Shown here: positions 3,483-21,921 of the stretch, piece after piece
Position numbering within the stretch: position 1 is the stretch's first letter
Layout of the letters: every line of letters begins with the position of its first letter
Virus record (IMG/VR): IMGVR_UViG_3300006789_000199
Span: 1-22,300 of that record
DNA from: a virus
Strand: one strand, 5' to 3'
Length of the DNA: 22,300 bases
The notes under the pieces: model-generated
What the model was told of the DNA's origin: nothing
The model's input: only the letters and a program-made list of their open reading frames with translations
Database searches by the model: none
Made by a program: the position numbers and the translations under genes

Positions 3483-3644
3483 TTAGACAACATCATACAC
3501 CTCCCCTGCTGGAGAAAACCAAGTATAATCCGGAAACTGCATAGCAATTTGCAGTTTTAATCCGTCAGTATCTGTTGCAAGTATTACAACTATTTTTCTC
3601 TCCAGTGTTTTTGGATGATCTAATATTACTTTATACGCTTTCAT
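3483..3644 (-). CDS. Small hypothetical protein (53 aa) downstream of uracil-DNA glycosylase
   Basis: A short ORF fills most of the gap between the glycosylase and the MazG-like gene. ATG is at 3644-3642 and TAA at 3485-3483. The product begins MKAYKVILDH and ends GEVYDVV. It has an alternating pattern (KIVVILATDTDGLKLQIA) followed by FPDYTWFSP, which looks like a small alpha/beta fold rather than random translation. The start overlaps the end of the glycosylase gene by 14 bases, matching the overlapping style of this genome. No family is recognised. It would be missed by any annotation with a 60-residue cutoff. Confidence 0.6.
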   Translation of the reverse strand: MKAYKVILDHPKTLERKIVVILATDTDGLKLQIAMQFPDYTWFSPAGEVYDVV

Positions 3645-4341
3645 GTAGGTTCCATTTTATGGGCTCTTCCCCCTGTTCTTCTAATACTATATTACATTTA
3701 TTAAACACATTACTTTTAAGAAATCCTCCTTTCCTTCCATAAGCTTCTGCTGCAGGATGAGATGCTTTTAAAACAGGATTACCGTTTAAACATTTCTCAA
3801 ATGCAGCAGCCTTTGCTCCTAAGAATATAACAGGCACTTCAGGATACTCAGCAGTAATGTCTGTTAGAAGTCTTTCCGTGAAGGGCTTCCACATCTCAGT
3901 GTGTGATCCTATCCTACCTGCCTCGAGTGTAAATGCAGTGTTCAACATAAGAATGCCTTGCTCACACCAAGACTCAAGAGAATAATCTGGAGTAAGCTGC
4001 AGAACACCAGTAGTATTCTCAACCTCTTCAAGTATTATTCTCAACGAGAATGGTATAGTCTTAGACTTTTCCTCATCAACACCAAATGCAACACCTGTAG
4101 GCTGTCCATACTTAGGATATGGATCCTGTCCTACAAGTATTACCTTGAGCCTATCCGGGGGAGTCAACTCAAATGCACGAAAGGTATCTTTCTTTGAAGG
4201 TATAACTAAGGTGGTTGCTCTAAGCTTGGCTACCTTAATACCTATATCTACCATGTCTTTCATGATAGGCTTCATTATCTTATCCCATTGCCTGAGATCT
4301 GAAGACTCTGTATCGATTTTTATATGTTTCCCTATCTTCAT
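3631..4341 (-). CDS. ung: Family 1 uracil-DNA glycosylase (Ung/UDG)
   Basis: UDG removes uracil from DNA by flipping the base out and cleaving the glycosidic bond. Family 1 motifs are present in order: VILVGQDPYP (residues 67-76, with catalytic D73; the usual sequence is GQDPYH), GVAFGV, WCEQGILMLNTAFT (125-138), SHTEMWKPFT, VIFLGAKAAAF and ASHPAAEAYG (H195 in the leucine-loop motif, usually HPSPLS). The 236-aa length is normal. The ATG at 4341 is preferred over internal Met codons because W19 then aligns with the conserved N-terminal Trp of bacterial Ung; it overlaps the upstream gene by 62 bases. Retained activity is likely but the Tyr-His to Tyr-Pro change and altered loop are unusual. With ribonucleotide reductase and MazG nearby, it probably keeps uracil out of phage DNA or degrades uracil-containing DNA. 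Confidence 0.92.
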   Translation of the reverse strand: MKIGKHIKIDTESSDLRQWDKIMKPIMKDMVDIGIKVAKLRATTLVIPSKKDTFRAFELTPPDRLKVILVGQDPYPKYGQPTGVAFGVDEEKSKTIPFSLRIILEEVENTTGVLQLTPDYSLESWCEQGILMLNTAFTLEAGRIGSHTEMWKPFTERLLTDITAEYPEVPVIFLGAKAAAFEKCLNGNPVLKASHPAAEAYGRKGGFLKSNVFNKCNIVLEEQGEEPIKWNLHESV

Positions 4342-5023
4342 CTATTATATGATATAACTCGGCAGACTCAGGAAGATCCTGCCCTATTCGTTTTTCTACT
4401 TTGGCTTTTCTTCTCTCTGTCCTATGAATTATCCCATATACCTCATGAGTTTTCTTCATAGAATGAAAGTCAAGAATTTTTACCTTATACTCTTCTGACA
4501 TTTCAGAGTACTTGCCCTTTACATACTTAAGAAAGTCTTCCTCATATATCATAGGTACATTAAATACATACATGATTGAGAAGTCATCTACTTCTAACCT
4601 ATCTACAAAGTCTTCATGATTCTTCATATTACGGTCAAGTGCCTCAAAAGATTCACTGTAACCTTTACGTAAAAGAACATGAAGTCTCATGGTAGGAGAA
4701 TCTTCTATCCATAGAAATACATTCATAAAATATGTATCCCACATTATACTAGCTCTTGTCTTAAATAACATAGGAGCTATAAATATAGAAGAATCAGACG
4801 TCTCCATTGAGTATAGATGGTAAATGTGGTTACCCTTCTTCTGTATATTCTCAATACGGAAGAGTCCGTCCTGGACAGGAATTATCCTGCCAGGAGCGTA
4901 ACTCATACCTGAATGACGTATCTCATGAATAACATCATCGTCCATCCTTATCTCTGCACTAGCATCAACTCTGATACTAACGCAAGTAGGATCCTTTATT
5001 GTAAGTGCAGTTGCTGTTTCCAT
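4280..5023 (-). CDS. Hypothetical protein (247 aa)
   Basis: Not recognised. The N-terminal two thirds look beta-rich and mixed (GRIIPVQDGLFRIENIQKKG, then HIYHLYSMETSDSSIFIAP), with MWDTYFMNVFLWIED near residues 94-108. The last third is charged and helical (TERRKAKVEKRIGQDLPES). There is no signal peptide or clear membrane span and no recognisable catalytic motif. The gene overlaps the RecE-like nuclease gene by 28 bases at its start and the uracil-DNA glycosylase by 62 bases at its end, so the three are probably co-transcribed. The position between two DNA-processing enzymes suggests a DNA-metabolism role, but this is association only. Confidence 0.72.
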   Translation of the reverse strand: METATALTIKDPTCVSIRVDASAEIRMDDDVIHEIRHSGMSYAPGRIIPVQDGLFRIENIQKKGNHIYHLYSMETSDSSIFIAPMLFKTRASIMWDTYFMNVFLWIEDSPTMRLHVLLRKGYSESFEALDRNMKNHEDFVDRLEVDDFSIMYVFNVPMIYEEDFLKYVKGKYSEMSEEYKVKILDFHSMKKTHEVYGIIHRTERRKAKVEKRIGQDLPESAELYHIIDEDRETYKNRYRVFRSQAMG

Positions 5024-6027
5024 GGTGATGTACAGTTTAAAGGCATGTCATTTTGATGAGCGTATACATTTCTAGGATGTTTCCAAAGATCGTTCTCGTA
5101 ATGCCATCCGAGATCTTCAAGAAGAGTTATCCATCCTCTATGATAATTACCATAAAGATCTGTATAACCGTGGTCTCCTGCTTTCATATCTTCATCAGAT
5201 ACAGTATAAGTGATAACATCATTACGTCCAGTAGTACCTACTACAATAAACTTAAAGTTCTCTACTGTGTATCCTTCAGAGATTTCATTTACAAATAAAT
5301 CTTCTATCGCTGCAGTATACATAGATGACTGCAAATAGTATTTGTATTTAATAAATGAAGATGAAAAGTAGTACACACTGCTTGAAGTTGTCTTCAAATC
5401 AACAGGATATATCTTTTTCTCCTCATGATCTATTAAAACAATATCAAGAAGAGCTTTACATGTTACACCTCCCTGCTGCCAGAATACTGGTACTTGGAAC
5501 TTAAGCTCAACGTCTGGATGTAAATCTTGTACAAAGAATCTTTTAGCTGATGTATCTGCAAGACAGTTCATCTTCATCCTAGACATCATCTCATACTCTT
5601 CTTGAGATATACATACCTTACCATCATTCTCACATCTCTCATAGATGTAATCTTTGAATCCCTCAAACTGCTTAGTAGCTGTCTTCTTATAAGAACTCTT
5701 ATACTCAGAGGCTTCAAATGCTTGTTCAGCAAGTTCCTCATCATTAATATTCCCAAAAGGATCCGTAAGACGGATAGTTATTGCAGCATTAACCATACCC
5801 TCCATCATACCTGTAGGAGGAATTGTAGTTGCTACATAGTATCTATTATTCCACTCATCTGCTGACTGGAACATTAAAGCGTCAAACGCACTCCCAATAC
5901 GGAATGCATTTGACTCTACTCTTTCCCGGGGATCTTTTACATTCATCGGGTGGTCATCAAAGTCACTTAGTAGTGACCTTGATATACCTTCTGCTGATCT
6001 ATATTCTTGTTCATTCATAGCATTCAT
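4996..6027 (-). CDS. PD-(D/E)XK exonuclease of RecE/YqaJ type
   Basis: RecE/lambda-exonuclease-like enzymes resect DNA ends to make single strands for annealing. The C-terminal nuclease core shows ALLDIVLID (D195), then IYPVDLKTTSS with D210-L-K212 as the D-(D/E)xK pair, and FIKYKYYLQSSMYTAAI with a tyrosine-rich helix containing Q233, the usual motif IV helix. The N-terminal ISRSLLSDFDDHP and FRIGSAFDALMFQ match the opening helices of RecE-type (DUF3799-like) nucleases, where the second motif normally reads G.alH; the histidine is Phe here. Length of 343 aa suits the family. The start may be M1 or M4. The gene overlaps the 254-aa gene by 17 bases. A Sak4-like ATPase in the same cluster could be its annealing partner. 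Confidence 0.8.
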   Translation of the reverse strand: MNAMNEQEYRSAEGISRSLLSDFDDHPMNVKDPRERVESNAFRIGSAFDALMFQSADEWNNRYYVATTIPPTGMMEGMVNAAITIRLTDPFGNINDEELAEQAFEASEYKSSYKKTATKQFEGFKDYIYERCENDGKVCISQEEYEMMSRMKMNCLADTSAKRFFVQDLHPDVELKFQVPVFWQQGGVTCKALLDIVLIDHEEKKIYPVDLKTTSSSVYYFSSSFIKYKYYLQSSMYTAAIEDLFVNEISEGYTVENFKFIVVGTTGRNDVITYTVSDEDMKAGDHGYTDLYGNYHRGWITLLEDLGWHYENDLWKHPRNVYAHQNDMPLNCTSPWKQQLHLQ

Positions 6028-6775
6028 TTATTACTTCTTTTAAGTGTGTATTTATTTTATTATTAAACTGCTCAAACTCTGCAAACCCTTTAGGCGCTTT
6101 AATTTTTGCATCAAACATGTCTTCAAAGATATCCATATCTCCTGTAGTTTCAAGAAAGCTGTACTTTTTTCTCATCTTTCTTGCATATATACCGAAGAGT
6201 TTCTCGTCAGAAGCTGTATGCCCCTCTATCTTTGTAAGACAGTCTGGATGTATATAAAGAATAGAATCTAAAGGTATGTCATAGACACAGCTACCTATTG
6301 CTTTATTAATAGCACTGTCTTTCTTCAAAGATACTCTTGTAGTTACATTATTCTTTACAAACAACCCTATTAAAGGAACAAGTTTACTATCAATTTCACG
6401 ATATACTACGTTATCTATAAGAAAATAAGCAGACTTAGTAGTTTTAAACCCTAAAACATCATTTGCATTAGAGTATCTTGATATACAATCTTTAAAATCT
6501 TTTAAAGCATAAGAGTATTTTGTTCTATAATTAGATGAGAAAGAATACTTTCTTTCAAAGGAATAGGCACCGTTAGCATGAATTATGGCCTCAAAGGGCA
6601 AGTATTTAGCCTTAGAGTTGTAATTAAGTCTAAAATTTATAGGCGTAGACTGACTAAATCCATACCAATCTGAGACAAAAGTTCTTTGCAAAACATAATC
6701 TCCCCTAGGAATCTGAGTACTAGGTCGCCTGAAGCCAGCTGTCCATTTTAATTTACTGTTATATATTACTTTCAT
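6011..6775 (-). CDS. Hypothetical protein at the end of the ubiquitin-like cassette (254 aa)
   Basis: Not recognised. The protein is rich in Tyr, Ser, Lys and Phe, especially residues 60-95 (KAKYLPFEAIIHANGAYSFE, then a Tyr/Ser-rich stretch). A central beta-like region contains SAYFLIDNVVYREIDSKLVP and IGLFVKNNVTTRVS, and a C-terminal helical region contains EDMFDAKIKAPKGFAEFEQF. There is no obvious catalytic triad, zinc site or membrane segment. Its ATG overlaps the stop of the E1-like gene by four bases (ATGA), the same coupling that links other members of the cassette, so it may be a component such as a target, adaptor or E3-like factor. That role is inference from position only. Confidence 0.72.
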   Translation of the reverse strand: MKVIYNSKLKWTAGFRRPSTQIPRGDYVLQRTFVSDWYGFSQSTPINFRLNYNSKAKYLPFEAIIHANGAYSFERKYSFSSNYRTKYSYALKDFKDCISRYSNANDVLGFKTTKSAYFLIDNVVYREIDSKLVPLIGLFVKNNVTTRVSLKKDSAINKAIGSCVYDIPLDSILYIHPDCLTKIEGHTASDEKLFGIYARKMRKKYSFLETTGDMDIFEDMFDAKIKAPKGFAEFEQFNNKINTHLKEVINECYE

Positions 6776-7449
6776 AATTCTACTGTTTCCATCATTAGTG
6801 AGAGATCATACTTAATAAAGAATGGTACCTCCCTTGTAGGATCTGTACCATACTCTAAACATATCCAATTATTAAGGACAGCTACCATCTTACCTGCAAG
6901 CATAGCTGCAGTATGTGAGGTTGCTTTAAAACTGCAAGGAAGATCAGGAACTTTTGCATCATCATATAGATGATCGTCATACCTGTCAGCAGTCTTTGGT
7001 GTTACAGCAAACAACTGAAATGCTTCAGCATTCATCCTACCATCTATAAAGAGTTTAGGATTATCCTGCTGTTCCCAGTTTCTAAACATATCTTCCCTGG
7101 CTTGCATGTTATCAAAACATGAGACCATAATAGGAGTTGTAGCAGAATCTGGAAGATATCTGTCTGTACTGTAATATAGACTAGGCTTCTTACCGCACAT
7201 GATATCAACATGATCACTTACTGCTTCTACCTTAGTCTTACCTACATCTGATTCTGTATAGAATTGACCAGCAAGATTGCTGTCTTCTACAATATCAGGA
7301 TCCATCAGCATTACCTGATGTTCGCCAGTTCTCATCAAAAGGATCATGAACCATGAACCGATACCCCCTGCACCTCCTACAGTAATAGGAGGGAGGGTTT
7401 GATCGAACCATGGACTATCCTTGAATCTACCATATCGAGTATCATTCAT
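6772..7449 (-). CDS. ThiF/E1-like ubiquitin-activating enzyme homologue
   Basis: E1/ThiF proteins adenylate the C-terminus of a ubiquitin-like protein and may then carry it as a thioester. A nucleotide-binding Rossmann motif VGGAGGIGSW (residues 24-33) is followed by VMLMDPDIVEDSNLAGQF, where D50 is the acidic ribose-binding residue and SNLAGQ replaces the usual SNLNRQ (the Arg is lost). CFDNMQAR (111-118) matches the D..DN...R adenylation motif. C172 in LPCSFKATSHTAAMLAG lies where E1 enzymes have the catalytic Cys, ahead of the crossover-loop helix. There is no CxxC zinc pair, and at 225 aa it is a minimal, single-domain E1 with no ubiquitin-fold domain. The start overlaps the 64-aa gene by 8 bases. 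E1-like identity is strong; thioester chemistry is inferred. Confidence 0.87.
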   Translation of the reverse strand: MNDTRYGRFKDSPWFDQTLPPITVGGAGGIGSWFMILLMRTGEHQVMLMDPDIVEDSNLAGQFYTESDVGKTKVEAVSDHVDIMCGKKPSLYYSTDRYLPDSATTPIMVSCFDNMQAREDMFRNWEQQDNPKLFIDGRMNAEAFQLFAVTPKTADRYDDHLYDDAKVPDLPCSFKATSHTAAMLAGKMVAVLNNWICLEYGTDPTREVPFFIKYDLSLMMETVEL

Positions 7450-7636
7450 TTTTTCTTCTAGGTATTAAAATAAGTTCATATTTACATCCACTGTCTGTGT
7501 TTTGATTAAGTACAGATACAAGCTTAGAAGCTTCTACTTCATTATTTGTATCATAGATTTCATCTCCATACGTAAGAAGATGTCTTGCTTTGCCTATATT
7601 CTTAATAATAGCAAAGCTGTGCATTTCTTTACTCAT
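7442..7636 (-). CDS. Small hypothetical protein inside the ubiquitin-like cassette (64 aa)
   Basis: This 64-residue protein lies between the JAMM peptidase and the E1-like gene, overlapping both (4 and 8 bases). It reads as a compact beta-alpha-beta fold: SFAIIKNIGKARHLLTYGDE, EVEASKLVSVLNQ, then a final strand CKYELILIPRRKNE. The final strand ending in basic residues and the overall size would suit a small ferredoxin-like or beta-hairpin adaptor. It is not recognised and has no Gly-Gly type tail, so it is not an obvious second ubiquitin-like protein. The tight coupling on both sides suggests it belongs functionally to the cassette. Confidence 0.7.
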   Translation of the reverse strand: MSKEMHSFAIIKNIGKARHLLTYGDEIYDTNNEVEASKLVSVLNQNTDSGCKYELILIPRRKNE

Positions 7637-8742
7637 CCTTCTGTAGCTGTATAGTTTATAGTTATTACAGCAAGCTCTTCGAAAATAGTATGAACCAACT
7701 GACTTACAAACGGATAATCCTTAAGACCATCTTCGCCTGGTAGAAACTCTCCAGCAAGATTGTACATCTCATCAGCAGCATCAGCATGACGTCCATCATC
7801 ATCAGGACCATATTCTTCTTTAATAACCCTCTGTATATGTTCTTCCACTTGAGTGTCAAGAATAATATCTTTATACTCTTGGTTTAAATTTTCCATAGGT
7901 TTAAGAGCTTCTATTATATTCTCAGAAGTAAACTGCTTATCTATTGCAAGTCCTGTCAATTTACGCATTGCAGAGAATGCATTAGTACTAAACATCTTAT
8001 CTTCATTTAGCTCAAACTCACCATCATAGTAGCCATTTAACTTCTCCTGATAATGATTGGTGCCATTAGAATCAAATCCTGCTGAATCTACTCCAGGCAC
8101 ATCAAAGATATTCATCTGGTTAGGAGAGATATGCTCTTCAAACGGAGTATCTCTGTACAATTGATTAGTAGAACCATACCCACTAACTACAACCTTTGAC
8201 AATCTTACCTGTCTTGCTGCAAGCATTGTAGGAATATCAAACTCTACTGTACCATCGAATGTAAGAATAGGAGGATTGTCTACTTGTAGTGTAGTTCCTG
8301 TTACTCCTATCTCAGCTTCCATACCTATCTTAGTGCAGAATACTGTAGCATGATTAACTATCAAAGACAAGTAATAATCATAGTACTTAGTATTATCATA
8401 CAGCTCTGACATATCAGTACCTGAGAAGTATGCTTTCATACCATGATGAGTGTGAATAAATCCACGCTTCATGTCTTCAGCCTCTGGCACCTCTTCAAAG
8501 AAATCAAGCATCTCCAAGTCAACAGATCCTGCAGTATAAGCAGATGTTCCTATATCAAGAAGATAAATATGCTTTGCACGTAGTACAAGGTCTGAATTAA
8601 ATAGGGATCCTGAGACCTCCTCATAGAATAGCATACCGCACCATTCTTTATTATCGTTTTTAGAATGTAGATAAGCTATCTCATTCATCAGCTCTGGGCT
8701 GATCATCAGGGTGTATCCCTGTTCCATTTCAAAATGTTTCAT
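7633..8742 (-). CDS. JAB/JAMM metallopeptidase (deubiquitinase-like)
   Basis: JAMM peptidases are zinc enzymes that cleave ubiquitin-like proteins from targets or trim their precursors. The full motif is present: E33 in KEWCGMLF, then HTHHGMKAYFSGTD giving H97-x-H99-x7-S107-x2-D110, which is exactly HxHx7SxxD. Residues 1-150 are the JAB core. The remaining ~220 residues are an extra region with no recognised fold, including an acidic stretch GPDDDGRHADAADEM near 315-330, and helical segments. This makes it roughly twice the usual core length, so the tail may bind the conjugate or the E2/E1 partners. The gene overlaps the E2-like gene and the 64-aa gene by 4 bases each. Catalytic assignment is confident; the substrate is presumed to be the Ubl at 9709-9927. 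Confidence 0.9.
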   Translation of the reverse strand: MKHFEMEQGYTLMISPELMNEIAYLHSKNDNKEWCGMLFYEEVSGSLFNSDLVLRAKHIYLLDIGTSAYTAGSVDLEMLDFFEEVPEAEDMKRGFIHTHHGMKAYFSGTDMSELYDNTKYYDYYLSLIVNHATVFCTKIGMEAEIGVTGTTLQVDNPPILTFDGTVEFDIPTMLAARQVRLSKVVVSGYGSTNQLYRDTPFEEHISPNQMNIFDVPGVDSAGFDSNGTNHYQEKLNGYYDGEFELNEDKMFSTNAFSAMRKLTGLAIDKQFTSENIIEALKPMENLNQEYKDIILDTQVEEHIQRVIKEEYGPDDDGRHADAADEMYNLAGEFLPGEDGLKDYPFVSQLVHTIFEELAVITINYTATEG

Positions 8743-9641
8743 AAGTTTAAATATTTATTGATAAATGTTTCTATGTCTCTACGCATTTCTTCCTTTTGAA
8801 GATTACCGGCTTGACCAGTTTCAGAAAAGTTATTAAACTCTTCTTGTGTAGGAATTATTAACATGCTTTCAAAAGTAAGGTCTCCGTAACCTATAGGATC
8901 TTCAAAATCTAATAAGTAATTACCTCCAGTGTCTTGTATTACTTCTGGTCTTTTCTTCCTCAGTAAGTCTAACATTGACATTTCAGATAAATCTGTACCT
9001 ATATTACTTTCTACTATAAGTCTAGTAAGTACCTCATCGTCTATAGATTTTATACTTACCTGGGGTAGAATGCCTCTTTTTACGTATTGATATGTAATAG
9101 CTTCCTCTTCGAGTAACCCTCTAGTTACCTTTAAAACATGATAAGTCTTTACAGGATTACCTTGCAAGACGTTAGATACTACTCTATTAAAATCTATTAC
9201 AGTATCCATCTTTATATGAGGAACTCCTGATACAGACTCATTACGTACATAGGCATTTAATGTAGCAAACACTATGTCCATGTCATTAAACTCTGGTTTC
9301 AATACATTTACCATAGGAGTATTACTGCCTAAACAAAACGCACTAAAAGCAATAGTACTTCTAGGAAGATGTGAATGATAATAAGAGCCCAAGAACTGAG
9401 TGGCATTTATCTGTGTCCGCATCCCTTGAAGATTATCAAAGTAAACATTGCCTTCCTCATCTGTATGATAATTAAGTTTAACCAATAAACCTTCTATGTC
9501 TATACTTAAGTCTAGTTCGTTAGTAATCGTAAGCTCCGGGAAATGTATGTAGACTTCAGTACTACTTACTTCTACATGATCGAAAAACTGTTCTGCACAT
9601 ACCTTTATAGTATCGGATGATACTTGTTGTGTTATCACCAT
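8739..9641 (-). CDS. Prokaryotic E2-like ubiquitin-conjugating protein
   Basis: E2 proteins take a ubiquitin-like protein from E1 onto a cysteine and pass it to targets. The N-terminal half resembles bacterial E2-fold (Prok-E2) proteins: VYIHFPELTITNE (30-42), then a strand region with QGMRTQ, then YYHSHLP (H89, H91) followed by FSAFCLGS with C103. The H.LP...CLG arrangement mirrors the HPN...CL core of eukaryotic E2s, with 12 residues from H91 to C103 rather than 10. Residues about 140-300 form an added region without recognised motifs, longer than a bare ~150-aa E2 domain. The leader TTAATAAAAATG lacks a Shine-Dalgarno. It follows the Ubl gene after a terminator and overlaps the JAMM gene by 4 bases. 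C103 as the active cysteine is inferred. Confidence 0.75.
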   Translation of the reverse strand: MVITQQVSSDTIKVCAEQFFDHVEVSSTEVYIHFPELTITNELDLSIDIEGLLVKLNYHTDEEGNVYFDNLQGMRTQINATQFLGSYYHSHLPRSTIAFSAFCLGSNTPMVNVLKPEFNDMDIVFATLNAYVRNESVSGVPHIKMDTVIDFNRVVSNVLQGNPVKTYHVLKVTRGLLEEEAITYQYVKRGILPQVSIKSIDDEVLTRLIVESNIGTDLSEMSMLDLLRKKRPEVIQDTGGNYLLDFEDPIGYGDLTFESMLIIPTQEEFNNFSETGQAGNLQKEEMRRDIETFINKYLNL

Positions 9642-9659
9642 TTTTATTAATTTATAGTT

Positions 9660-9697
9660 AGTGAAATAAGAAAAGAAAGAGAGGCTTTCACCTCTCT
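9660..9697 (-). terminator. Rho-independent terminator between the Ubl and E2-like genes
   Basis: On the minus strand a 7-bp stem, AGAGAGG / CCTCTCT (9697-9691 and 9684-9678), has a 6-base loop and is followed by the T-rich tract TTCTTTTCTTATTTC. It starts 12 bases past the Ubl stop codon and is the largest non-coding gap in the ubiquitin-like cassette. It should end or attenuate transcripts carrying the Ubl and let fewer polymerases reach the E2-JAB-E1 genes. Confidence 0.7.
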
Positions 9698-9708
9698 CTC
9701 AATTCATC

Positions 9709-9927
9709 TTAGGCGCCTGCCTTCATACGAGCAGGACTTGAAACGAGGGTAATGTTCCCTGAAGGTAGCGGAGTAGACATGTCGTCTAGCATTAATCTCG
9801 CTTCCTTTGCAATAACCGATTGGTCTGAAAAGTCAGTACCTGTTTCTACAGATAATTCTGCAAGGCTTGTTGCATTAGACTGATAGCTCTGTGAGCCGCT
9901 TCCTGTTTTTACTGTTATAGTTCTCAT
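9709..9927 (-). CDS. Ubiquitin-like beta-grasp protein (Ubl)
   Basis: A 72-residue protein with the size and layout of a ubiquitin/MoaD-type modifier. The first strand is RTITVKT, the second is near QSYQSN, a helix follows at SLAELSVETG, and the sheet closes with ARLMLDD and then STPLPSGNITLVSSPARMKA. The phrase LPSGNITLV followed by a flexible basic tail matches bacterial and phage ubiquitin-like proteins, where LPxGDxxxL precedes the tail. The chain ends MKAGA, so the reactive Gly may be G71 after removal of the last Ala by the JAMM peptidase; a Gly-Gly end is absent. The ATG is the only practical start and lies inside the upstream 94-aa gene (53-base overlap). E2, JAMM and E1 genes follow directly, which is the strongest support. 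Confidence 0.75.
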   Translation of the reverse strand: MRTITVKTGSGSQSYQSNATSLAELSVETGTDFSDQSVIAKEARLMLDDMSTPLPSGNITLVSSPARMKAGA

Positions 9928-10159
9928 TTTCTTTTTCTATGAGTTGTGAATAATATATACTTATTGTATTATGCTCTTTAATCAACTGTATAACCTTCTC
10001 ATCTGGTTCAGGTATCATAATGTTAAGAGAAAACTCTAACATCACGTCTTCCAGATAGTTACGGGCTACAGTAAAAGATGCATTCTTCCCGAGTCTTGAC
10101 TCAAGATATTCCAAGACATCCTTATCAAGACCGAGGTTTGCTATTTTCAATGTATCCAT
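9875..10159 (-). CDS. Hypothetical protein (94 aa) overlapping the Ubl gene
   Basis: Not recognised. The sequence is mainly helical: LGLDKDVLEYLESRLGKNAS, then FTVARNYLEDVMLEFSLNIM, a PEPDE turn, EKVIQLIKEHNTISIYYSQL and a basic C-terminal tail. No cysteine, zinc or catalytic motif appears. Its start lies inside the Hjc-like nuclease gene (35-base overlap) and its last 17 codons share DNA with the start of the Ubl gene in another frame. Its position makes translational coupling to the Ubl plausible. It may belong to either the replication block or the ubiquitin-like cassette. Confidence 0.65.
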   Translation of the reverse strand: MDTLKIANLGLDKDVLEYLESRLGKNASFTVARNYLEDVMLEFSLNIMIPEPDEKVIQLIKEHNTISIYYSQLIEKENENYNSKNRKRLTELSV

Positions 10160-10484
10160 TTAGAATATTGATAAAATCTGACATATCAAGCATTACGAAT
10201 CTGCCCTTCTCGTAGAAGCGCTTACCTTTTTTCTCTGTCAACTTACTAAGTATGACATTGATCCTCCCCTCATCTGGCATCTCTGCCAATATCTCTTCGT
10301 AATTAGCTCTCTTTGATAGATTCTTACATTGGAAATTAAACTCACCTGTATAACATATGTCAACCTTGGCAGCATCTCTCGCTCTACTCTCAGCTCTTGA
10401 GCTGACAGCTTCAGGAAAGATTTCTTTCAAGGCTGCTATGCAATCCAGTTCCCATTTATTACCTCTACTTCTATTGTTGTTCAT
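10125..10484 (-). CDS. Hjc-like PD-(D/E)XK nuclease (putative Holliday junction resolvase)
   Basis: A 119-residue protein resembling archaeal-type and phage Holliday junction resolvases of the PD-(D/E)XK fold. It opens with the typical RSRGNKWELDCIAALKEIFP, where E12 is the first acidic metal ligand. SSRAESRARDAAKVDICY supplies the basic loop and D42, and FNFQCKN gives Q52-x-K54, completing D...(E/Q)xK. These enzymes cut four-way junctions as dimers; this one could instead process recombination or packaging intermediates. The length is usual for Hjc. It overlaps the primase gene by 14 bases upstream and the 94-aa gene downstream. Nuclease fold is well supported; junction specificity is inferred. 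Confidence 0.75.
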   Translation of the reverse strand: MNNNRSRGNKWELDCIAALKEIFPEAVSSRAESRARDAAKVDICYTGEFNFQCKNLSKRANYEEILAEMPDEGRINVILSKLTEKKGKRFYEKGRFVMLDMSDFINILNGYIENSKPRS

Positions 10485-11397
10485 CTAACAATTCTTTTAA
10501 CGTATTTTTAGTATACTCCTTGCCGTGCAAAAATACATGATCTGAAAGATCTTTTGCTTCTGTAAGAAATATTTTTTCTAAATCATACTGCTCTGATAAG
10601 ATTGTTGCAGCTTTAATGCCTGCTTCATCATTATCATATAGTACAACTATCCGCTTAAATCTTTGCTTGATGTCCTCCATTATATCAGAAGGTACTGGAC
10701 ATGTTTCACTCTGAGGTGCCATTGCAGGATAACCAAACTCGTAGCACAGCATCACGTCTTTGTAAGATTTCTGAATGATCAGAATGTCGTGTGTCTGCGG
10801 TAATAAGTCAATTCCCTGTATTTTAACACCACCTGCTATAAACCTATAGTCTTCCTTAGTAGGTCTGTACACCTTGTACTCTCCACCTAGGTCATAGGCA
10901 TATGCCGGTCCTTCACATGTAAAACGTGTGTCGTTTATCCAGTAATATGAAATGGGGCTGACTCTGAATAACTTCAAAGTCTTTTCTGTGATACCATACT
11001 GATTCCAAAATGTTAAATCTCCTTTAGTATATTCCCTGCGCTTTATCTTTAAATCCTTCTTAATAGGATTCTTCTTCACGTATGTGACGTCAGGTACTTC
11101 ACCGGTATTAAGATCTTTTGTTATCTGTAGCAGTAATTCATCACGGTCCAGTTCAGGATATACATTAGAGACGAAGGACATTACATCCCCCGTCTCTCCT
11201 AATGCATAATCATGATAATAGGTGTGGTCATCCTTCACTCTTATAACGAATGATGGACTTTTATCCTCTCTAAATGGAGAGGAGGTTACCTCACCGATAG
11301 GGATGTTAGGAAAGTAGTGTCTGTAAATCTGCAGCTCACTGTACTCATCAAGGATGTCTTTCCTTAATGGTATATCCTTATCCCTTACCTGGAACAT
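10471..11397 (-). CDS. DnaG-like Toprim DNA primase
   Basis: Primases make the RNA primers for DNA synthesis. The N-terminal ~80 residues (YFPNIPIGEVTSSPFREDKS, then DYALGETGDVMSFV) match the CHC2 zinc-binding domain in shape (SPF..D..PSF, D...G..GD...FV), but the zinc-binding Cys/His are missing. The Toprim domain spans about 204-290: DILIIQKSYKDVMLCYEFG, then RIVVLYDNDEAGIKAA with D255-x-D257, and AKDLSDH (D283, D286). In the first Toprim motif the usual Glu is Gln209 or Lys210, as in other phage primases with a KSxKDVM motif. No separate helicase-binding domain is seen at 308 aa. The gene is one base from the SSB-like gene and two genes below the DnaB-like helicase, its likely partner. Confidence 0.87.
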   Translation of the reverse strand: MFQVRDKDIPLRKDILDEYSELQIYRHYFPNIPIGEVTSSPFREDKSPSFVIRVKDDHTYYHDYALGETGDVMSFVSNVYPELDRDELLLQITKDLNTGEVPDVTYVKKNPIKKDLKIKRREYTKGDLTFWNQYGITEKTLKLFRVSPISYYWINDTRFTCEGPAYAYDLGGEYKVYRPTKEDYRFIAGGVKIQGIDLLPQTHDILIIQKSYKDVMLCYEFGYPAMAPQSETCPVPSDIMEDIKQRFKRIVVLYDNDEAGIKAATILSEQYDLEKIFLTEAKDLSDHVFLHGKEYTKNTLKELLDEQQ

Positions 11398-19158: not shown

Positions 19159-20032
19159 CTTCTTCTTCTTGAATTTTAAGTGTTTCTTCTAGCTTTACTT
19201 TAAGATCGTCCACTGTATACTCCTTTAAAGTAATACCTAATGAATAGGGTATGCAAACATTGTAGATATTATCCATGATAATATTATCCTTAACTCCCCT
19301 TTCTTCATTGGTTCTTCTCATCTGCTGTCTAACTTTATTGATAACAGATATGAAGTATCCTCCCATCATTATCTCTTTGTAAGACAAACCAAGTGCTAGC
19401 ACATCTTCTGCTACTTTATCAGACTTATCAGTGTCACAAAAGCTATTCACAACTGTACGAATCACTTTGGTTCTATACTCAGGATCATCTAGAAGATTAT
19501 CAATAAGACTATCCTTGTCATATATCTTAGACCTAAAGTCAGCCTCTGTAATTAGAGGTTGCTCAGTCACTAGCTCAAGATAATGCTCGATAATCCTTGT
19601 TCTCATCTCGAGAGGGATTTTTGCAGGATCATCTACTGAAAGTATCTCATCCAATTGTTCCATCATCATAGCATCCTGATCGCTGATATCCTCTTCCCTT
19701 GATACTCTCTTAGAAGAAACTCTACGACCAACAGGTCTACCTATTATGATGTTATCAGGATAATTAAGCTTAAGATCAATGATCTTTTTGCATAGCTCTG
19801 CAGCTTCTGCATAAAATTCAACCTTATCTAGTTTATCAAACAGATGCCATAGCTTACCATTGATGTAAGCTCTTCTGATTCTACTACCAGCACCTACAGC
19901 AATTGACATGGTATCATCACTATTAATTAGCCCGTGATCTTTTAAGGCTTTAAAGGCAACAGTATTAGTGCCTAATGTTGATGTCACTGCCGCATTAGGC
20001 AGCAGTAACGACTTGAGAAATCTCTTTATCAT
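19151..20032 (-). CDS. Hypothetical protein downstream of the VWA-like gene (293 aa)
   Basis: Not recognised. The N-terminus is basic (MIKRFLKSLLLPNAAVT), then a VGAGSRIRRAYINGKLWHLF segment. A charged linker (GRPVGRRVSSKRVSREEDIS) splits it from a largely helical C-terminal half (SLIDNLLDDPEYRTKVIRTV, then GGYFISVINKVRQQMRRTNE). The start overlaps the VWA-like gene by 38 bases but has the strong A-rich leader TTAATAAAAATG seen before other genes here, which supports it. Its constant company with the AAA+ and VWA-like genes suggests a third member of that complex, by association only. Confidence 0.68.
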   Translation of the reverse strand: MIKRFLKSLLLPNAAVTSTLGTNTVAFKALKDHGLINSDDTMSIAVGAGSRIRRAYINGKLWHLFDKLDKVEFYAEAAELCKKIIDLKLNYPDNIIIGRPVGRRVSSKRVSREEDISDQDAMMMEQLDEILSVDDPAKIPLEMRTRIIEHYLELVTEQPLITEADFRSKIYDKDSLIDNLLDDPEYRTKVIRTVVNSFCDTDKSDKVAEDVLALGLSYKEIMMGGYFISVINKVRQQMRRTNEERGVKDNIIMDNIYNVCIPYSLGITLKEYTVDDLKVKLEETLKIQEEEDV

Positions 20033-20933
20033 TTTTATTAAAGATTAACTTTGTTAGAAAATTAAACGCCTGTTCAGGCGAGTTGTCCTTAAACTCGGAA
20101 CCGAGCATAATATCAAGTCCAAGGAACTGGGCATCCTCTTCATACTTAACATTGCAATCGTAACCCAGACCGCTATCTATTTCTCCTGATAGAAAGTAAC
20201 TCCATCCAAGAAAGACATGATGTCTAAACATACCAACATTACCCATTAGAGCCATACGATTAATATTCATACGCTCTGAAGCTGATTTTGCTGTTATGAG
20301 TACGCCTTGTCTATCATAATCTGGTGTAACATCTTTGCCATCAAACAGAATATACAACTCAACAGGTATACCTGCAGCTTCTATCATCATGATAGCTACT
20401 GTAAGATTAGTAATAAGCTTTACAAAGCTCTTATCACTGTTACCTGCATTGAGACCAAGCTTGACGCCTATCTTAAATCCATTGGAGGCTTTCTTCTTCC
20501 TTGATACAAACATATCAGCGTTACCGCTAAGTGCTCTAGGAATATCAAACCTACCTCTGTCATCTCGAAATTCACGTCTCTTACGCTTAGCTATCATCCG
20601 ACTGAATAGATGCTGTAGACCGTCAGAGTTCATGGCTTCTTTAAATGATGCTTTTATCTTATCTACAATATCCTGACGAGGATCAAGCTCCTCCAATCTT
20701 CTATTGTAAGTATCAAAAAACTCATCTTCACCATATCTCCAAAAATCAGAACCTGATCCTGTAGTACATTCATCAATAACACGAAGTCTGTCCGTATTAT
20801 CTCCTACATTTTCAACATCCTCATGAACGCCATCTTGTTTATTAACAGCCTCTATAAACTCAAATAGAGATTTAAACTTGATGTATTCAGTACATTCTTC
20901 CTCACACCGTAATCTCCTGTTCTTTAAATCCAT
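19995..20933 (-). CDS. VWA/CobT-like phage protein, partner of the AAA+ ATPase
   Basis: AAA+ ATPases of the MoxR/CobS type work with VWA-domain partners, which this 312-residue protein probably is. Large phages often carry this pair. The motif FDIPRALSGNADMFVS (129-144) recalls the VPRALSG/PDxM motif of phage proteins found next to CobS-like ATPases. Residues 155-195 (IGVKLGLNAGNSDKSFVKLI, then AIMMIEAAGIPVELYILFDG) have the strand-helix-strand layout of the start of a VWA domain. The metal-binding DxSxS is not intact (NAGNS), so metal coordination is doubtful. A 60-residue N-terminal part is acidic. The gene overlaps the ATPase gene by 32 bases. The fold is a moderate call, the partnership a better one. 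Confidence 0.6.
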   Translation of the reverse strand: MDLKNRRLRCEEECTEYIKFKSLFEFIEAVNKQDGVHEDVENVGDNTDRLRVIDECTTGSGSDFWRYGEDEFFDTYNRRLEELDPRQDIVDKIKASFKEAMNSDGLQHLFSRMIAKRKRREFRDDRGRFDIPRALSGNADMFVSRKKKASNGFKIGVKLGLNAGNSDKSFVKLITNLTVAIMMIEAAGIPVELYILFDGKDVTPDYDRQGVLITAKSASERMNINRMALMGNVGMFRHHVFLGWSYFLSGEIDSGLGYDCNVKYEEDAQFLGLDIMLGSEFKDNSPEQAFNFLTKLIFNKNDKEISQVVTAA

Positions 20934-21921
20934 TTTCGTAGGTTTTACAAGGTGATTTTATATTTTTAAGGAATACTTCTTGCTCCTTAGTTTCCCAATG
21001 AGCTGTAAGAGTCTTCATGATCTTATAAGTATTAAGACCATTGTGAAACAGAGTATAGCAGTCGACAACAGTACGAGTTGATATAACTTCATTCATGCCC
21101 ATAACTTGGATCTGCTTTCTAACAGCAGTCATCATATCCATCCATGCTGCATCAGTCAAAGACTTCTCCAACTCATAATCATAGCCAATATGAACTCTAC
21201 ACATCTTAAATCTGTCTAAGAATGCAGTATCCTGAATGTCACGACCAGAGTAATCCATACTTGCATTACCCCAAGTATTACCTGCAAGGATACAGTAGAA
21301 GTCATCATGCTTCTTTGCTGTAGTATTACCCTTACGAGTAGGAACAGATAACATACCACTACGATCAAATGCAGCATTCAATACGATAGCCATGCCAGGA
21401 GACATAGCATCATACTCATCAATGAGCATAACACCGCCATTCTCATAGAAATCAAGGAATGTAGGATAGTTATAGCCAGCAAGGTCATTAAAACCTATAA
21501 GCTCTGTCTTACTAGCCTCCTCATTACAAGAGAATGTAGCATATCTAAGCTCCATAATATCTGCAACCTGCCCAGCAAGAGTAGATTTACCACTACCAGT
21601 AGGTCCTACAATCATTGATTGCTTAAATAACTGCAGATACATTAACACTTCAGTAGTTCTTTCATGAGTTTTAGTAGGATCTACCTCAAACTCTATGTCT
21701 TTAAGAACTATCTTTTTAATAGCTGTCCTATCTTGAATAGATTTGACTGCTTCATCAAGATCAGTTTTAATATTATTCTCTACACCCTCTACGAATGTTT
21801 GAATGCGAGAATCAATACGGGTATCACTAATCTCATCTTTAATAGCTGATCTTACTAGATTTCTCATCTCCCCGGACATCAGCAAAAGCCCGAGTTTTCT
21901 TTCAATATCTCTATCTTCCAT
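20902..21921 (-). CDS. MoxR/CobS-like AAA+ ATPase
   Basis: AAA+ remodelling ATPases of this class use ATP to rearrange partner proteins or complexes. Walker A is MIVGPTGSGKSTLAGQV (residues 103-119, K112, S113), Walker B is VMLIDEYDAM (D168, E169), sensor 1 is ILAGNTWGNA (211-220), and DTAFLDRFKM (231-240) supplies the arginine finger. The first ~95 residues are helical with no recognised domain. Naming it a cobalt chelatase subunit would be misleading since no cobalamin genes are nearby. It is probably encoded with the VWA-like gene, overlapping by 32 bases. Roles in virion assembly or host takeover have been proposed for similar phage pairs but are not shown. Confidence 0.88.
   Translation of the reverse strand: MEDRDIERKLGLLLMSGEMRNLVRSAIKDEISDTRIDSRIQTFVEGVENNIKTDLDEAVKSIQDRTAIKKIVLKDIEFEVDPTKTHERTTEVLMYLQLFKQSMIVGPTGSGKSTLAGQVADIMELRYATFSCNEEASKTELIGFNDLAGYNYPTFLDFYENGGVMLIDEYDAMSPGMAIVLNAAFDRSGMLSVPTRKGNTTAKKHDDFYCILAGNTWGNASMDYSGRDIQDTAFLDRFKMCRVHIGYDYELEKSLTDAAWMDMMTAVRKQIQVMGMNEVISTRTVVDCYTLFHNGLNTYKIMKTLTAHWETKEQEVFLKNIKSPCKTYENGFKEQEITV

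Follow-up and report, generated by a model that had tools for sequence, protein, structure and literature searches.

Bacterial ubiquitin-like systems are known chiefly as antiphage defences (Bil, Bub and CBASS) or as plasmid genes (PRTRC), and the locus described here raises the question of whether a phage can carry a complete set of this kind for its own use. The window, i.e. the whole stretch of DNA that was analysed, is the 22.3-kb IMG/VR virus record IMGVR_UViG_3300006789_000199, whose minus strand encodes a ubiquitin-like protein (Ubl), an E2-like protein, a JAMM metallopeptidase and an E1 enzyme among genes for DNA replication. Our analysis suggests, with a probability of roughly 55%, that this block is a reversible Ubl-conjugation system of the phage, most likely directed at a host or defence protein that varies from host to host and serving host takeover or counter-defence. 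If this is true, a phage-borne full set would reverse the usual direction, in that it is the virus that tags proteins.

All four open reading frames (ORFs) described in a first-pass annotation of the window were present on the minus strand, and the motifs it had listed for them (GAGGIGS and C172 in E1, HTHx7SxxD in JAMM and HSH...FCLG in the E2-like protein) were found as claimed. The 225-aa E1 (6772..7449, minus strand), with its ThiF fold and predicted adenylating function, is by its sequence a certain member of the ThiF family, matching PF00899 (2.2e-16) and PHROG_15670 (7e-49). Among its relatives GAGGIGS (GxGGIGS), D50, D52, K73 and C172 were conserved, the last being the sole invariant cysteine, so that the glycine-rich motif, the Asp pair and a candidate catalytic Cys172 (codon 6936-6934) that characterize E1 enzymes of the ThiF/MoeB/UBA type all appear to be in place. 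A profile built from 13 relatives matched UBA5 best in the PDB, and also MccB, ThiF, ubiquitin E1s, Cap2 and BubCD. The 369-aa JAMM/MPN+ metallopeptidase (7633..8742, minus strand) gave a weak Pfam match that fell under the cut-off (PF14464, E=2.8e-4). Its metal-binding and catalytic set, E33, H97xH99, S107 and D110, was invariant in the alignment, the C-terminal half of the protein being variable, and the E...HxHx7SxxD pattern expected of a JAMM/MPN+ enzyme recurred in 82 of 91 loci, seven of the nine exceptions being interrupted genes. In these seven loci the interruption lies between or beside HSH and FFSGTD; four of them (L042, L066, L077 and L082) carry group I introns (Rfam RF00028) at this catalytic segment, while L054, L069 and L083 are interrupted there with no match in Rfam.

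The Ubl (72 aa; 9709..9927, minus strand) gave nothing useful in single-protein scans against Pfam, NCBIfam and PHROG, a Pfam scan of 64 Ubl members returned only scattered chance matches, and tblastn with the 72-aa sequence found no phage, so that profiles were required. An AlphaFold2 model based on 64 relatives predicted a strand-strand-helix-strand-strand-strand order with a predicted local distance difference test score (pLDDT) of 82, and its Foldseek neighbours in the PDB were mostly beta-grasp or ubiquitin-like proteins, including plant-type ferredoxins, ISG15, NEDD8, E1-bound ubiquitin and TtuB. The proposal that the 72-aa protein has a beta-grasp fold has thus withstood structure prediction, and a reading of this fold as a ferredoxin was ruled out because the protein contains no cysteine. 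Its tail, ARMKAGA, places Gly71 (codon 9717-9715) one residue ahead of the stop. Across 13 diverse phages this glycine never varied, and 64 sequences showed conservation of at least 90%, as would be expected of a terminal Ubl glycine. What had been called a flexible basic tail corresponds more accurately to a conserved motif, K-x-[IV/M]-[KRA]-[SA]-G. The glycine is followed by nothing or by few residues in some phages, such as the Ala in the window, and by an extension of 100-200 aa in others, which would therefore need a peptidase that JAMM could supply. In many crAss-like phages the extension has a conserved end such as SDxEIDxMFxF (e.g. L007:5226-5606), and in cr106_1 an HNH endonuclease gene stands directly after the Ubl tail, between the Ubl and its extension. 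Since many of the long proteins have a Met right after SG(A), the extension is possibly translated separately from this internal start. An interpretation of the extension as an SAP/HeH-like DNA-binding domain was dropped, as it found no support in Pfam.

The 300-aa protein (8739..9641, minus strand) is provisionally named an E2-like transfer protein, a functional guess from its invariant cysteine, its HxH motif and its position. Its motifs read H89-S-H91...C103-L-G and E135-S..G..P, and H91, C103, G105 and E135 were invariant among 60 sequences, making Cys103 (codon 9335-9333) with its nearby histidines a plausible catalytic centre. The AlphaFold2 model was confident (pLDDT 93, predicted template modelling score 0.86), and the order of its elements, helix, beta-meander, HxH, Cys and helix, is reminiscent of E2. 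The confident viral matches of this model in Foldseek were all crAss-type relatives; scans of the single protein against Pfam, NCBIfam and PHROG gave nothing useful, and a Pfam scan of 60 members gave scattered chance matches only. Two further loci contain proteins with a comparable motif. In L080 (IMGVR_UViG_3300028534_000004, 4708-10016) two E2-like and two E1 genes were found, the second E2-like protein having HPH...CLG in place of HSH...CLG, and in the Xanthomonas jumbo phage PhiXhv-12 (L105, 3232-6606) an E1 related to the clade of the window E1 (1.5e-30) lies near topoisomerase genes, directly after an 892-aa protein carrying HPHMAVPSSQESHGSLCLG, an E2-like motif. A search seeded by the E1 of this jumbo phage gave no matches.

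In the gene run, E2-like and JAMM overlap by 4 nucleotides (nt), JAMM and a 64-aa ORF by 4 nt, this ORF and E1 by 8 nt, and E1 and the next gene, encoding protein X, by 4 nt. The overlaps of 4 to 8 bases noted earlier are therefore real, but the 64-aa ORF between JAMM and E1 (7442..7636, minus strand) had gone unmentioned; it lies inside the overlapping run, is not conserved, had no match even in close relatives and is placed outside the core module. In one close relative (L002, IMGVR_UViG_3300030376_004413) the gap between JAMM and E1 encodes at 7136-7990 a radical-SAM protein that resembles spore photoproduct lyase (PF20903, 2.2e-27), in the position of the 64-aa ORF of the window. Between Ubl and E2 an intrinsic terminator hairpin with an 11-pair stem plus T-run was confirmed (9675..9700, minus strand, read from 9700 to 9675). 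Compared with shuffled sequence, the gap at this point had a more stable fold (z<-2) in 60 of 68 loci, other gaps tested in these phages mostly had no hairpin, and the E2, JAMM and E1 genes overlapped in most loci. The terminator is predicted to raise the output of Ubl above that of the enzymes, and a layout of Ubl, terminator and enzymes is what would be expected if Ubl is used stoichiometrically and the enzymes catalytically. Promoter-like matches stayed within about two standard deviations of shuffled sequences, and no promoter is proposed.

The block is not peculiar to the phage of the window. DNA polymerase PolA of this phage is about 33-35% identical across nearly the full protein to that of Steigviridae crAss-like phages, which points to a relative of this group of gut phages, and tblastn against GenBank recovered the same phages with E1 (77 records), JAMM (74) and the E2-like protein (70). 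These were mainly Steigviridae (phiCrAss001, PhiCrAssBcn, DAC15/17, 'tikkala', 'frurule' and cr85/106/111/112/126/128) and FpV4-like Flavobacterium phages; the E1 matches also included two Moraxella records. A scan of IMG/VR yielded 91 loci; 80 were retained. All four genes were present in 84 of 95 loci (several of which are the same phage recorded twice), including phiCrAss001, DAC15 and Flavobacterium phage FpV4, with the order Ubl-E2-JAMM-E1 in 83; most of the remaining loci lie on contigs that are short or truncated, and those that are complete have another ORF at the place of the missing gene. Since so many loci share the set, nearly all in the same order, its recurrence goes far beyond chance. 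In phiCrAss001 the block corresponds to gp79 (Ubl), gp78 (E2-like), gp77 (JAMM) and gp76 (E1), flanked by the primase gp80 and by gp75 and the uracil-DNA glycosylase (UDG) gp74. Among 84,980 prokaryote genomes, near relatives of the window E1 occurred on no more than two contigs, both from metagenome-assembled genomes, and the E1 family is for this reason essentially viral. The block is thus often met with in FpV4-like Flavobacterium phages and in crAss-like phages of the Steigviridae, and it is present in most of the sampled Steigviridae records, where its genes are annotated, or mislabelled, as 'thiamine biosynthesis', or else as 'metalloprotease' or 'hypothetical'. A search of the literature on crAss phages with ThiF or ubiquitin, which covered neither bioRxiv, most subscription journals nor supplements, found no description of the block, and the main texts of Yutin et al. 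(2021; PMC7886860) and Shkoporov et al. (2018; PMC6235969) do not mention it. The block is real, widespread and apparently undescribed, and it offers a testable function for four adjacent genes, both in gut phages that can be cultured (phiCrAss001, DAC15) and in Flavobacterium phages.

The families of the proteins suggest a chemistry, strongly for E1, JAMM and Ubl and weakly for the E2-like protein. Termination between Ubl and the enzymes would leave Ubl in excess, and JAMM would trim it where residues follow the terminal Gly. E1 would then adenylate this Gly and form a thioester on Cys172, from which Ubl might pass to Cys103 of the E2-like protein; the latter, perhaps with protein X, could attach it to lysines of a target, and JAMM could take it off again.

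The evolution of the block points to where this target may lie. Protein X (254 aa; 6011..6775, minus strand), directly downstream of E1, keeps its position in relatives and was detected in 51 loci; it is a candidate target or specificity factor. When the window was compared with three relatives, DnaB, the AAA ATPase and primase were 89-96% identical, E1 84-91%, Ubl 76-88% and the catalytic part of JAMM 87-91%, while identity was only 46-50% for the E2-like protein, 34-55% for the C-terminal half of JAMM and 40-48% for protein X, the last between phages that share about 90% identity in their primases. Likewise, protein X was lowest (37%) between two Kolpueviruses, where the whole cassette fell behind primase (81%), AAA ATPase (92%) and UDG (87%). 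In addition, the block can be absent. The Steigviridae phage cr116_1 has no E1 genome-wide, and E2, JAMM and the beta-grasp domain are absent from the slot (L104, 8529-13581), where rIIA and rIIB follow the primase instead (PHROGs, 7.6e-17 and 5.6e-35). This phage keeps the Ubl extension as an 82-aa ORF that matched the extension profile (E=1.2e-15) and not the Ubl profile, so that it was rejected as an orphan Ubl; joint loss of the beta-grasp domain and the three enzymes is what would be expected if the former serves only the latter. A second member of the family, cr108_1, likewise has no E1 genome-wide, and its primase is followed (L103, 8277-13863) by genes for a RimK-like ATP-grasp protein, a COOH-NH2 ligase and an amidotransferase. 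Both phages retain their replication genes, and the site behind the primase is possibly an exchange site for host-takeover or protein-modification genes. In summary, conserved activation next to variable delivery parts, the swap for rIIA/rIIB and the dispensability of the block in two Steigviridae together suggest host-facing targets. A more far-reaching version is put forward more tentatively and is less likely than not: phages, the cultured crAss-like phiCrAss001 among them, would encode and run a complete Ubl-conjugation pathway that includes an E2 of new fold. In this version the module would serve host takeover, could be exchanged for rIIA/rIIB, and would have target-facing parts that co-evolve with the host.

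Several observations weigh against conjugation to a host protein. The Foldseek matches of Ubl, with probabilities of about 1 and a TMq of about 0.6, include ferredoxins and none with E<1e-3. The expectation that the 300-aa protein has an RWD/E2 fold failed, since the pLDDT 93 model had no E2 or RWD protein among its 50 best PDB matches and none with E<=0.001, although a distant E2 may escape Foldseek; no UBC fold can thus be assigned to the model, and the block may contribute an E2-type protein whose fold has not been recognised before. In a comparison with the PRTRC-B protein of plasmids, hhalign aligned the CxG motif only, with low power as 4-5 PRTRC sequences were available. In the very close pair phiCrAss001/Bcn2 the E2-like protein is not divergent (98%), E1 (86%) and X (91%) being lowest, and because synonymous divergence (dS) is high or saturated for the E2-like protein and X, their fast divergence may partly reflect recombination. 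Finally, the location of the module inside replication genes would suit a role in replication.

This location is the basis of the first alternative, in which the same conjugation chemistry is directed at the replication or recombination proteins of the phage itself, in replication timing or replisome protection. The first-pass annotation had placed the module among replication genes, which our analysis supports, and in nearly all loci it lies in a cluster of primase, UDG, resolvase, PD-(D/E)XK and RNR genes. It had also considered replication or virion proteins as substrates, which we do not favour: the replication proteins stay near-constant, in contrast to the strong divergence of the E2-like protein, X and the C-terminal end of JAMM, and cr108_1 and cr116_1 keep their replication genes with no E1 anywhere, the slot of the latter holding rIIA/rIIB. 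We consider this alternative unlikely, but the best placed of those weighed here. It is less probable still that the block is a sulfur relay for thiolation or cofactor synthesis, with the beta-grasp protein as a ThiS/MoaD-like carrier, a ThiF-like E1 and the 300-aa protein as an acceptor enzyme and not an E2. The ThiF-type E1, TtuB among the Ubl matches, the missing E2 fold and the database label 'thiamine biosynthesis' would fit such a relay; however, the 225-aa E1 has no rhodanese domain or CxxC zinc pair, its profile matches UBA5 best, the annotated neighbourhoods contain no sulfur donor and no thiazole or molybdopterin gene of a ThiS/MoaD pathway, and an E2-like protein with an invariant Cys nearly always adjoins. 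That His89, His91, Cys103 and Glu135 of the 300-aa protein merely bind metal while E1 alone loads Ubl, as in MccB or archaeal UbaA, is the weakest proposal and improbable. No E2 match was obtained, these residues might together coordinate a metal, and the best PDB matches of E1 include MccB; however, the motif recurs as H-S-[H/P]...C-x-G at the same operon position in PRTRC-B and as HPH...CLG beside the related E1 of the Xanthomonas jumbo phage. Conjugation to a host or defence protein thus remains the preferred reading.

Around the block, the minus-strand run begins with the primase (10471..11397; Zn_ribbon_DnaG and Toprim domains, dnaG TIGR01391), which precedes the cassette in nearly all loci, followed by a RusA-like resolvase and a 94-aa ORF ahead of Ubl. 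Downstream of protein X come a 343-aa ORF, sitting where relatives have an annotated PD-(D/E)XK exonuclease, a 247-aa ORF and then the UDG (3631..4341, minus strand; PF03167), a conserved nearby neighbour. Elsewhere on the same strand, a 132-aa protein (280-678) has a SET domain (PF00856, 2.3e-8) after a hydrophobic N-terminus and, with its lysine methyltransferase-type fold, is possibly a second protein-modifying enzyme of this phage, and an AAA_5 ATPase followed directly by a DUF7192 protein (19995-21921) may form a chaperone-like pair.

Among known systems, the plasmid PRTRC operons come closest in gene order and, judged by its sequence, in E1. They combine the same four roles (Ubl PRTRC-C, E2 PRTRC-B, JAB PRTRC-A and PRTRC ThiF) in the same order, Ubl...E2-JAB-E1, and we take them to be what Iyer et al. 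(2006; PMC1779556) classified as operon type 6d and predicted to be a ubiquitin-type system. PRTRC ThiF and the phage E1 gave a profile match of 98.6% (hhalign) that spans some 200 columns and aligns the catalytic Cys, but the score of the phage E1 against TIGR03736 (41.6 bits, cut-off 144.75) indicates the same superfamily and not an equivalog, and PRTRC JAB has HSH...FFSxTD in common with the phage JAMM. In contrast, none of 60 phage E2-like members matched PRTRC-B (Prok-E2_D) in Pfam, which leaves them outside that family, and the phage Ubl is not assigned to the PRTRC-C type, having no match to it in NCBIfam, Pfam or hhalign (the latter of low power with only 4 PRTRC-C sequences). Moreover, the phage loci have no genes for the PRTRC companions ParB and protein E and instead have primase or other replication genes upstream, in keeping with their place in replication clusters, and the extra region of JAMM is C-terminal in the phages and N-terminal in PRTRC. 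BilABCD and BubABCD likewise unite Ubl, E2, JAMM and E1 in one operon, and JAMM-dependent Ubl maturation, as in BilA/BilC (PMC11354881), is plausible for the phage block. These operons are, however, encoded by the host, and BilABCD has a tandem beta-grasp BilA and a pseudodimeric BilD, unlike the single beta-grasp Ubl and single-domain E1 of the phage; PADLOC gave BilD at only E=0.004 and no match to BilA or BilB. The phage cases of Iyer et al. (2006; PMC1779556), the TAPI-TAPK genes of lambda and T1, resemble the block in pairing a phage Ubl with terminal Gly with a JAB, but they are tail-assembly genes with no E1 or E2, whereas the block of the window lies among replication genes. CBASS Cap2/Cap3 share a related E1 adenylation domain and a JAB with it, Cap2 being an E2-E1 fusion that conjugates a CD-NTase, while the phage block has neither fusion nor CD-NTase. 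The block does not represent a new category of system, because its genes are arranged on a known operon plan and its E1, JAMM and Ubl fall into known superfamilies.

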